Below, piece by piece: positions 2,507 to 5,759 of a stretch of 5,759 bases of DNA. The DNA lies in the NCBI GenBank assembly GCA_021161545.1, contig JAGHAJ010000121.1, positions 1 through 5,759 on the forward strand. Direction: 5' to 3'. How positions within the stretch are numbered: position 1 is the stretch's first letter; each line of letters opens with the position of its first letter. Source of the stretch: Synergistota bacterium. Lineage in GTDB: Bacteria; Synergistota; JAGHAJ01. Below the pieces are notes generated by a model. It worked only from the letters and a program-made list of their open reading frames with translations, made no database searches and was not told where the DNA came from. The translations under genes were made by a program, and so were the position numbers.

Positions 2507-4018
2507 TCACTCCCCAACCACAAAAGGTAACTCTGAAGAAGTCACTCTGTCAGAGAAAAGATCAGAAAGTATAACCTTGAGCGTATACTTTCCCGGTTTA
2601 GTGTTTCTCAAATTCAACCTAAGTCTCAGATACATCTCTGTATTCGGTATCCATGATACCCACGAAAACTTCTTCCACCCCTTCTTTTCAAACACCTTTT
2701 TCCCTTCAGCATTAAAGAGTTCAACCCCTATGGTAACACCAAACCTATATCTATCTCCATCTTTGAGAAGAGTATAACCCACAGGCCTCATATAGATAAG
2801 CATCTTTTCACCACGTCTAAAAATATTATCCTCCCTCAGCTCGTATATACCCACTCCCCTCACACTATTCACAAACAAAATATTTGCTACCTTAAGGGGC
2901 GCTTTATTCCATACTTTAATAAACAAGTGGTGAATGGATTCAAGCGCTTTTAAAAACTTTTTCTCAGATATGAGTTTGCCAATCTGCATACTCTCTTGGT
3001 TGGAAGTTTTATTCCCTTCTTTGAGTCTCTCATTTTCCAACTCAAGGGTGTTGAGCTTCTCCTTTAAGCTGGCATTTTCTTCGATAAGCTTATCTACCTT
3101 CTCTTTTGATTCAGAAAGCCTCTGGCTCAACTCCTTATTCTTAAACCTCAAAAGCACTATTTCCTCTTTTAAACTATTGTTGTCAAAGATGAGCTGTTTA
3201 GGTACATTATTCAACTTATCTCTAAGGAGTCTGTTCTCAACTTTAAGTTTTAACACTTCCTTTTTCAGTTTGCTGTTATCATACATAACCCCCGAAAGCC
3301 TCTTCGTTAGCTCATTGTTGTCCTTAAGCAACTTTTTAACTTCCTGCTTCATCTCCGCACTCTGGAACTTAAGGAGCGCTACCTCTTCCCTCAGCGCTTT
3401 ATTCTCAAAAGTAACATCAGAAATCTTTTCCCTCAAAAGGTCGCTATTCTCCATAAGTATCTTTACCCTTCGCTGCTCTGCACGCAACTTCTCCTTTAAG
3501 TCCCTCACGTTAAGCTTTAAGAATGCAGATAAATCTTTCAGAGAAACAATCTGTTTCTCATAGTAATCCAATCTATCTTCCGCCACACCAAGGTTACGCC
3601 TCAGCAACGCATTAGTGCGCTCAAGCACTCCAACCTCTTTCGTGAGTTTATCATTCTTAGAGAGCAATACCCTTATCCTTCTTTCAAGTCCTTTATTCCT
3701 GCCAAGCAATTCCTCATTCTTTTTAACAGTAGAGGTTAGCATATCCTTCAATTTATCATTTTCCTTTCTAACGCTCAAAGCAACTGCATGCTCTTGAGCT
3801 TTTGCCATCTCCAACGATGCTATCCGCTTTTTTAATGCTACATTGTGTTCCTTTGCAGCAGAAAGCTCTTTACTCACAAGGTCATACTTTAACTTTATGG
3901 ACGCATTTTTCTGCAAGACATCAGATATTATGGAACCACGCTCTATAACTATACTTACGGATAAGACCAGCCCCAATGCCAAGACAACAAGAAGCACACC
4001 CCACTTCCTCTCCACCAC
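2507..4018 (-). CDS. Membrane-anchored long coiled-coil protein with C-terminal beta-rich domain, function unknown
   Basis: I do not recognise a named family for this 503-residue protein. Residues 4-5 (RK) precede one hydrophobic segment (about 7-25), with no lipobox and no signal-peptidase site that I trust. It is probably a type II membrane protein with the bulk outside the cytoplasm. Residues about 33-335 are a highly charged coiled coil in which N-x-x-L/I recurs in heptad phase. The phase shifts around Pro273, the only proline in the rod. After a linker (336-345) and a helix (about 346-372), residues about 378-503 look like a beta-sandwich: FRRGEKMLIY, a Trp-rich stretch near 447-457, and PGKYTLKVILSD, a pattern I associate with C-terminal domains of many uncharacterised envelope proteins. 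It has no cysteine. The GTG start at 4018 follows GGGGGG six bases upstream; a second GTG at 4015 is possible. It may be a structural or scaffold protein of the envelope, but that is inference. Confidence 0.85.
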   Translation of the reverse strand: MVERKWGVLLVVLALGLVLSVSIVIERGSIISDVLQKNASIKLKYDLVSKELSAAKEHNVALKKRIASLEMAKAQEHAVALSVRKENDKLKDMLTSTVKKNEELLGRNKGLERRIRVLLSKNDKLTKEVGVLERTNALLRRNLGVAEDRLDYYEKQIVSLKDLSAFLKLNVRDLKEKLRAEQRRVKILMENSDLLREKISDVTFENKALREEVALLKFQSAEMKQEVKKLLKDNNELTKRLSGVMYDNSKLKKEVLKLKVENRLLRDKLNNVPKQLIFDNNSLKEEIVLLRFKNKELSQRLSESKEKVDKLIEENASLKEKLNTLELENERLKEGNKTSNQESMQIGKLISEKKFLKALESIHHLFIKVWNKAPLKVANILFVNSVRGVGIYELREDNIFRRGEKMLIYMRPVGYTLLKDGDRYRFGVTIGVELFNAEGKKVFEKKGWKKFSWVSWIPNTEMYLRLRLNLRNTKPGKYTLKVILSDLFSDRVTSSELPFVVGE

Positions 4019-4064: not shown

Positions 4065-4106
4065 CATTAGTATCGAGTTAATTACGTCAACTACTCGATA
4101 CTAATG
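4065..4106. repeat. Perfect 14-bp inverted repeat, 14-bp spacer, in the coiled-coil gene promoter region
   Basis: CATTAGTATCGAGT (4065-4078) is exactly reverse-complemented at 4093-4106, separated by 14 bases. A third copy of its ATTAGTAT end lies at 4033-4040 in direct orientation, inside the predicted 5' leader of the coiled-coil gene. The left arm covers the -35 position of that gene. There is no T tract after either arm, so it is unlikely to be an intrinsic terminator. A dimeric or tetrameric regulator site is the most natural reading; the end of an old insertion is an alternative. Confidence 0.8.
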
Positions 4107-4217: not shown

Positions 4218-4246
4218 TTGACATACACTCCTCACTGAAGTATAAT
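4218..4246 (+). promoter_or_regulatory. Consensus sigma-70 promoter of the feo operon
   Basis: TTGACA (4218-4223), a 17-base spacer and TATAAT (4241-4246) match the sigma-70 consensus at all twelve bases. Transcription should start near 4253, inside the first iron box. A promoter this strong needs a repressor, which fits the DtxR-type boxes that abut it. The -35 lies only two bases beyond the right end of the MITE-like element. Confidence 0.92.
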
Positions 4247-4264
4247 TAGTTTAGGCTAATAAAG
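4246..4264 (+). promoter_or_regulatory. DtxR-type iron box 1
   Basis: The 19 bases TTAGTTTAGGCTAATAAAG agree at 14 positions with the DtxR/IdeR consensus TTAGGTTAGGCTAACCTAA, including the whole TTAGGCTAA centre. The site starts on the last base of the -10 and covers the predicted start of transcription, so an occupied site would block RNA polymerase. The DtxR-family gene downstream is the obvious candidate ligand. The similarity is seen; binding is inferred. Confidence 0.75.
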
Positions 4265-4283
4265 TTAGATTAGACTAACAATA
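4265..4283 (+). promoter_or_regulatory. DtxR-type iron box 2
   Basis: TTAGATTAGACTAACAATA also matches the 19-base DtxR consensus at 14 positions and carries a GTTAG/CTAAC inverted pair (4264-4268 and 4275-4279). It abuts box 1 with a 19-base centre-to-centre distance, just under two helical turns, so two dimers could sit on nearly the same face. It ends 12 bases before the first start codon of the operon. Confidence 0.72.
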
Positions 4284-4295
4284 CTGGAGGTTGGC

Positions 4296-4529
4296 ATGCA
4301 AGATATCATAATGGGTATCATAAGCATACACAAAGTTATATCCACTCAGGAAATACAGAGGATAACCGGGTTTGAGGAGACAGAAATAAGAAAAGCCCTG
4401 CTATAACTCAACACTGAAAAGAAGATTTCATATGATACAAAGAGAGCTCTCAGAACATCTTGCAAATCATGTCCTTTAAGAAATATCTGTAAAGTAAGGA
4501 GGTATAAAGATGAGTGGCGTACTAACTGA
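4296..4529 (+). pseudogene. feoC: FeoC-like winged-helix protein interrupted by in-frame TAA
   Basis: ATG at 4296 follows GGAGG with a five-base gap, so translation should start well here. After 36 codons the frame meets TAA (4404-4406), then stays open for 40 more codons to TGA at 4527-4529. Read through, the 77-codon product looks like a small winged-helix FeoC protein. Two helices (DIIMGIISIHK, STQEIQRITG) are followed by a recognition helix EETEIRKALL-stop-LNTEKKISYD, then a cysteine motif C56-x2-C59-x5-C65 (SCKSCPLRNIC) like the Fe-S or Fe-binding cysteines of FeoC. The stop falls where a Tyr (TAC/TAT) would fit the helix. FeoC proteins accompany FeoA/FeoB and influence FeoB stability or activity. 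The intact tail shows no frameshift, which suggests a recent mutation, a read error or readthrough. It overlaps the DtxR-FeoA start by 20 bases. The FeoC label rests on pattern and position. Confidence 0.65.
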
Positions 4530-5214
4530 AAGTCTGGAAGATTATTTACTCGACATATTTCTAATAGGAATGAAAAAGAAAGTTGTCAGACTGAAAGACA
4601 TAGCACAGAGCAGAAAGGTAAGCCTACCATCTGTAACCAATGCTATAAGGGTGCTCTCCAGCAAAGGGCTTGTAAACCATGAAGAATACGGACATGTAGA
4701 GTTAACAGATGCTGGCATAGAAGAGGCAAAGCGCGTATATGAAAGACACAAAACCATATACAAATTCCTCCACAATATATTAGGAATAGATGAGGAGCTT
4801 GCTGAAAGTGAAGCACACAAGATGGAACACGATCTACACGAAAAAACATTGATGCTGCTGCAGAAGTTCACCGAATTCGTTGAAAAATCGCCCGTAAAAG
4901 AAAATCCACTGTGGTTAGAGCACTTTAGATACTTCGTGGAGACTGGTGAATTTCCAGAGTGTAAACATACCGAAGGAGGTAAACCAAGAATGAAGCTGAG
5001 CGAGATGAAAGTCGGAGAGAACGCAAAAGTAATATCCATTCAAGCAAAAGGCACATTAAAAAGAAGATTATTAGATATGGGCATAATCCCGGGAACTACT
5101 GTCAAAGTGGAAAAGAAGGCACCCCTTGGAGACCCAATAGACATCGTGGTAAAGCACTACCACCTCTCTTTGAGAAAAGATGAAGCGTCAAGCATTACAG
5201 TGGAGGGGATATAA
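4510..5214 (+). CDS. DtxR-family metal-dependent repressor fused to a C-terminal FeoA (SH3-like) domain
   Basis: This 234-residue regulator is expected to bind DNA as a dimer when loaded with Fe(II) or Mn(II). Residues 5-65 form the winged helix-turn-helix (LTESLEDYLLDIF, VVRLKDIAQ, SLPSVTNAIRVLSSKGLV, wing YGHVELT). Residues about 70-125 form the metal-binding and dimerisation domain with RH80 and EAHKMEH (101-107). By alignment from memory, D11, H103, E106 and H107 sit at the primary site; DtxR Cys102 and MntR Glu99 correspond to His103. A linker with FPECKH (148-153) leads to a FeoA domain (161-234) containing LKRRLLDMGIIPG. ATG at 4510 follows AAGGAGGT by six bases. A second AAGGAGGT precedes Met161 and could start a free FeoA. 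It is second in the operon and its stop touches the feoA start, so it is probably autoregulated through the two iron boxes. Fe versus Mn preference is not readable. Confidence 0.93.
   Translation: MSGVLTESLEDYLLDIFLIGMKKKVVRLKDIAQSRKVSLPSVTNAIRVLSSKGLVNHEEYGHVELTDAGIEEAKRVYERHKTIYKFLHNILGIDEELAESEAHKMEHDLHEKTLMLLQKFTEFVEKSPVKENPLWLEHFRYFVETGEFPECKHTEGGKPRMKLSEMKVGENAKVISIQAKGTLKRRLLDMGIIPGTTVKVEKKAPLGDPIDIVVKHYHLSLRKDEASSITVEGI
4973..4992 (+). promoter_or_regulatory. Internal Shine-Dalgarno and in-frame ATG at the FeoA domain of the DtxR fusion
   Basis: AAGGAGGT (4973-4980), a full eight-base anti-Shine-Dalgarno match, lies nine bases before an in-frame ATG (4990-4992). That ATG is Met161 of the DtxR-FeoA protein, the exact first residue of a typical FeoA (MKLSEMKVGE). 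Initiation here would release a 74-residue FeoA. It equals the operon's other ribosome sites in strength. The match could instead be chance within Glu-Gly-Gly codons, or a relic of formerly separate genes. Confidence 0.6.
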
Positions 5215-5427
5215 ATGCCACTCGCATACGCTAAAACAGGAGAAACTCTCCGCATACAGAACATTGCTGGAGGTAGAAACCTATCCAGAAGACTTGCAGA
5301 AATGGGACTATACCCAGGTAGCACAATAAAGGTTATATCAAATCAAGGTGGCCCTATAATTATAGCTATAGGAGAAACACGCCTTGCTATAGGTAAAGGA
5401 ATGGCCGCAAAGATATTTGTAGGATAA
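5215..5427 (+). CDS. feoA: FeoA, small SH3-like ferrous iron transport protein
   Basis: This 70-residue cytoplasmic SH3-like protein works with FeoB in Fe(II) uptake, probably by contacting FeoB's cytoplasmic side. Family hallmarks are visible: a Gly-rich turn ([16 protein letters not shown]), [32 protein letters not shown]. Length is normal (about 70-80). The ATG follows the DtxR-FeoA TAA with no gap, and GGAGG (5202-5206) inside that gene's end lies eight bases upstream, so translation is probably coupled. It is the second FeoA-type domain in the operon and differs clearly from the fused one, so this is not a fresh tandem copy. Confidence 0.95.
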
Positions 5428-5428
5428 A

Positions 5429-5446
5429 AGGAGGTTATGTAGGATG
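5429..5446 (+). promoter_or_regulatory. Ribosome binding site that fixes the feoB start
   Basis: AAGGAGGT (5428-5435) lies between feoA and feoB. Its GGAGG (5430-5434) is nine bases from ATG 5444, a good spacing. A nearer ATG at 5437 is only two bases from GGAGG and is followed at once by TAG, so ATG 5444, which opens the FeoB frame, is the start. Confidence 0.8.
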
Positions 5447-5759
5447 CAAACGCAGATACCTGCAGTTCATGTAAAAAGAAGTGAAGCCATAACGATAGCC
5501 ATGATTGGAAATCCAAATACCGGGAAAAGTGCCCTATTCAACGCTTTAACCGGGGGGCATGCACACGTTGGGAATTGGCCAGGTGTAACAGTCGAAAAGA
5601 AAGAAGGAAAATTTGAGCATGGAGGTCAAACCTTTAACGTCATAGACCTACCCGGAACATACAGCCTAACAACCCACTCCATAGATGAAAGAATAGCACG
5701 AGACTTTATTCTCTCAGGCAATGCAGATATAGTCATAAACGTAGTAGATTCAACAAACA
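5444..5759 (+). CDS. feoB: FeoB ferrous iron transporter, N-terminal GTPase domain, cut by window end
   Basis: FeoB is the inner-membrane Fe(II) transporter with a cytoplasmic N-terminal G-protein domain. The 105 visible codons show P-loop GNPNTGKS (residues 22-29), switch [10 protein letters not shown] with the G2 Thr at about 49, G3 DLPGTYSL (68-75), switch [12 protein letters not shown], and the NVVD strand (99-102) that precedes the G4 NxxD motif beyond the window. All membrane segments lie outside. The start is ATG 5444, 16 bases after the feoA stop. About 15 residues lie ahead of the first beta strand (ITIAMIGNP), slightly more than in minimal FeoB proteins. It is last of the visible feo genes and should share the iron-box-controlled transcript. 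Confidence 0.96.

Follow-up and report, generated by a model that had tools for sequence, protein, structure and literature searches.

The short reading frame at positions 4296–4529 of the window (the whole 5759-nucleotide stretch of Synergistota DNA analysed here) is probably a feoC-like gene that a single nonsense codon has broken and that opens a feo operon under iron control. Provided that the stop exists in the cells, the locus shows feoC in the course of being lost, which is relevant to the published proposal of an ancestral FeoC that most lineages later dropped. There is nothing unusual in one nonsense codon within an accessory gene that cells can do without, and the case is most likely one of ordinary gene loss rather than of a recoding trick.

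The interrupted frame and its resemblance to FeoC

The frame opens at an ATG (4296–4298) on the plus strand, preceded by the ribosome-binding site GGAGG (4286–4290), and runs for 36 codons to a TAA at 4404–4406, the base directly 3' of which is C. Beyond the TAA the frame continues, unshifted and open, for 40 codons to a TGA at 4527–4529, and this second half (4407–4529; translation LNTEKKISYDTKRALRTSCKSCPLRNICKVRRYKDEWRTN) carries the C-x2-C-x5-C motif CKSCPLRNIC at 4461–4490. The start, the TAA and the C after it, the 40 open codons and the cysteine motif had been described correctly in an earlier, sequence-only reading of the locus. The same reading took the stop to replace a tyrosine, which the alignment does not bear out, since 12 FeoC proteins have Q, L, H, R, T or I at the corresponding place; the position is variable, is occupied by Gln in E. 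coli FeoC and lies near the end of the recognition helix. The first half (4296–4406) is gene-like in its codon usage and the second half is not, a difference that is compatible with relaxed constraint on the latter and to which its cysteine-rich make-up also contributes. With the motif kept and no second stop, decay of the second half, if any, is slight. No ATG, GTG or TTG lies in frame anywhere in the second half, so that only readthrough or a non-standard start could give rise to it. A frame read through the TAA would share 20 bases with the next gene, dtxR-feoA.

The read-through protein of 77 residues was compared with FeoC in several ways. The proposed check against PF09012 gave no match up to E 10, whereas the profile does recognise E. 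coli FeoC as well as two genes from the same phylum, and we therefore name the gene FeoC-like and do not file it as a member of the family. The earlier interpretation is supported in part: gene context, the CKSCP-x4-C spacing, an alignment across the stop and intact feoB-linked FeoC-like genes in the phylum speak for a FeoC-like identity, but PF09012 does not. In a BLAST comparison with E. coli FeoC, the aligned segment (residues 8–65) spans the stop and contains a single gap of three residues (E 1e-4, for a single comparison), and hhalign against 13 FeoC sequences gave E 1.6e-4 at a probability of 50%; the similarity crosses the TAA without a change of frame. The archetype cysteine motif is CKxCPx4-7C, as quoted in PMC8749426, and CKSCPLRNIC conforms to it, the first Cys of the four-Cys form being absent. 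A single-sequence fold model (pLDDT 69) has the three winged-helix helices in place, the wing not being modelled, and the TAA position falls inside the third of them. Foldseek and VIA-align matched this model to winged helices with middling scores, those of Foldseek only at E >1, and no FeoC chain was among the matches listed, which excludes nothing. A PDB sequence search with the read-through protein gave no match.

These results bear on whether the two halves belong together at all, since the frame might instead be a short helix-turn-helix-like ORF followed by a chance open stretch with cysteines. Such a reading would account for the missing PF09012 match and for the codon usage of the second half, and it gains from the observation that DtxR-type winged helices score equally high with our home-made FeoC profile, so that the helix part alone is unspecific and only the cysteine part specific. 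Against it, only 10 of 1000 shuffles of the second half's own residues reach its real FeoC-profile score, a number that falls to 2 of 1000 when the second half is joined to the first; after two sequences had been added to the profile, the shuffles reaching the real score were 51/2000 alone and 1/2000 joined, and with a small profile of three there were none among 2000 in either form. Moreover, matches to winged-helix profiles extend past the stop as far as residue 50 or so and vanish when the first half is used alone, and the CxxCPx4C spacing is identical to that of an intact, feoB-linked gene from the same phylum (L238). Of 120-base random sequences matched in dinucleotide composition, 3.1% are open in one frame, 0.1% contain C-x2-C-x4-6-C and about 0.01% combine the two, the motif having been picked post hoc; CxxCPx4C arose in 13 of 100 000 shuffles of the second-half residues. 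We consider unrelated halves improbable.

Predicted promoter, probable operator and genes of the feo operon

The order of elements is promoter, two DtxR-like boxes, the broken ORF, a dtxR-feoA fusion, feoA and feoB, all genes lying on the plus strand. A predicted sigma-70-type promoter, TTGACA-17-TATAAT (4218–4246), matches the consensus at 12 of 12 positions and leads directly into two abutting DtxR/IdeR-like boxes at 4246–4264 and 4265–4283. Each box agrees at 14 of 19 positions with the DtxR/IdeR consensus used here. A lone box of this quality is not rare, in that 28 of 200 random whole windows of the same composition score at least 14; because the two boxes here are in register and a DtxR-like box is likewise placed between promoter and dtxR-feoA in a WOR-3 genome (L104), 4246–4283 is likely to be an iron-repressor operator. 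Its position directly after a consensus promoter suggests that the DtxR-FeoA fusion may repress its own operon.

The fusion gene (4510–5214; Pfam Fe_dep_repress, Fe_dep_repr_C and FeoA) encodes a DtxR-type repressor joined to a FeoA domain and is followed by feoA (5215–5427; Pfam FeoA, 77 bits) and by feoB (5444–5759; Pfam FeoB_N, 138 bits), which is cut by the contig end. The fusion has its own ribosome-binding site, AAGGAGG (4496–4502), within the second half of the feoC-like frame, so that the TAA does not block dtxR-feoA. The feoC-like frame shares the operon with feoA and feoB, but as its first gene and not downstream of feoAB, which is where a survey found feoC in all species having the gene (PMC8749426). 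Its place at the front, beside the likely operator, makes for a modest novelty of gene order, seen in a broken gene.

That position also raises the possibility that the short ORF is itself functional, its 36-residue product or the act of translating it serving as a leader that tunes dtxR-feoA, with the second half a relic. The good ribosome site, the location between operator and dtxR-feoA and the confinement of gene-like codon usage to the first half are in keeping with such a role. We nevertheless hold it to be improbable, to the same degree as unrelated halves, since neither the stop nor the ribosome site of dtxR has noteworthy RNA structure around it, the product ends inside the helix-turn-helix, and related dtxR-feoA genes have no such ORF between operator and start codon. 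Among related genes of 42–52% identity, none has a feoC-like ORF upstream.

Upstream of the operon, two further features were noted. The intergenic region between a coiled-coil gene and the feo operon contains a 12-base inverted repeat, TTAGTATCGAGT ... ACTCGATACTAA, at about 4069–4105. The product of the coiled-coil gene (2507–4018, minus strand) is 503 residues long, has a hydrophobic segment at its N-terminus and is predicted to form a very long coiled coil; only weak SMC-like or SH3-anchor family matches were found for it.

Origin of the in-frame stop codon

The sequence-only reading had offered a nonsense mutation, a base error or readthrough as the source of the stop. The first of these fits best, although that it is a real mutation in the cells is our inference and a base error is the main rival. 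In that alternative, the TAA is a miscalled base in a draft metagenome assembly, and cells carry the feoC-like gene unbroken; a draft genome in 288 contigs with 82% completeness and a second half whose motif and frame are still intact would be in keeping with this. However, no internal stop occurs in any other gene of the window, and in about 164 kb of the genome no clear second interrupted gene was seen by eye among 20 of 22 candidates, two of them (L215 and L228) judged at this level only. We regard a base error as unlikely, if less so than any other alternative.

Programmed or leaky readthrough of the UAA, giving a short form and a full metal-binding form, found no support and appears very improbable. 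The intactness of the second half without frameshift is in its favour, as is the C following the stop, since measurements in yeast, cited in PMC5289835, are reported to show more readthrough in this context. Yet among bacterial stops UAA is described as the one least often read through (PMC5289835), the 36 tRNA genes found in the 82% complete genome are all sense and include no suppressor, and no RNA structure follows the stop (z 0.81); RNA structure and Rfam searches returned nothing beyond a tRNA. In about 164 kb of the genome TAA ends 51 of 130 long ORFs, in six cases followed by C, and is therefore a normal stop here. Least probable of all is that the UAA is kept on purpose in a first-placed feoC-like gene of an autoregulated dtxR-feoA operon; were it so, the majority of ribosomes would produce a short helix-turn-helix fragment and a small number the metal-binding form, so that Feo activity would depend on how efficiently translation terminates.

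The majority of Feo systems have no FeoC, for which repeated loss has been argued (PMC8749426). The genome contains, moreover, a second, complete feoA-feoB pair (L214, G000:C180, 5155–7295, minus strand) without an adjacent feoC. A small ferredoxin-like ORF (7370–7549, minus strand) lies upstream of this pair. Taken together, the stop, tRNA, RNA-structure and codon-usage evidence, the record of FeoC loss and the second feoAB make a nonsense mutation the most economical reading. Under a nonsense mutation, the promoter and repressor boxes would still serve the operon, and translation from ATG 4296 would end within the predicted recognition helix, at 36 residues, leaving the wing and cysteine motif unmade. 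The ribosome site of dtxR-feoA, about 100 bases beyond the stop, would allow that gene to be translated independently, and the regulator, FeoA and FeoB would thus still be made. The 36-residue fragment would presumably be inactive, and the wide dispensability of FeoC, together with the presence of a second feoAB, may explain why its loss is tolerated.

FeoC-like genes elsewhere and comparison with known systems

Two intact FeoC-like genes lie directly after feoB in the same phylum, both on the minus strand (L238, 1444–1698; L236, 1375–1686), and both score above the PF09012 cut-off. It took a mixed profile, with the query among its sequences, to find these short genes, which points to under-recognition of feoC in this phylum. 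Together with the front-of-operon placement, absent from the survey, they suggest that feoC-like genes, when short and diverged, readily escape notice. A search with PF09012 in 61 relatives gave one marginal match only, which lies within a 1252-codon open frame and was rejected. Searches with the read-through protein by itself yielded nothing convincing, either in its own phylum, where the best matches are in unrelated contexts, or in about 790 genomes of two other groups, the latter search having no positive control. Close relatives sought by DtxR-FeoA patterns were not found in genome contigs, plasmids or viral contigs, and no relative nearer than phylum level came to light.

The closest named counterparts are the FeoC proteins of E. 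coli and Klebsiella (PF09012; PDB 1xn7, 2k02 and 4awx), with which the product of the window gene, if read through, shares its length (77 as against 78 residues), a putative winged-helix part and SCKSCP followed by a further C, and the gene its linkage to feoA and feoB. Unlike them, the window gene is interrupted by a TAA, is without the first of the four Cys and has no PF09012 match, and it stands before feoAB, whereas the E. coli and Klebsiella genes stand after. The L238 and L236 genes resemble it in encoding a putative winged helix and then CxxCP but, in contrast, are intact, PF09012-positive and downstream of feoB, and their proteins have about 20% identity to that of the window. The DtxR-FeoA proteins of WOR-3 (L104) and Deltaproteobacteria (L105) are 51–52% identical to the fusion described here, yet their loci, unlike the window, have no feoC-like ORF between operator and dtxR.
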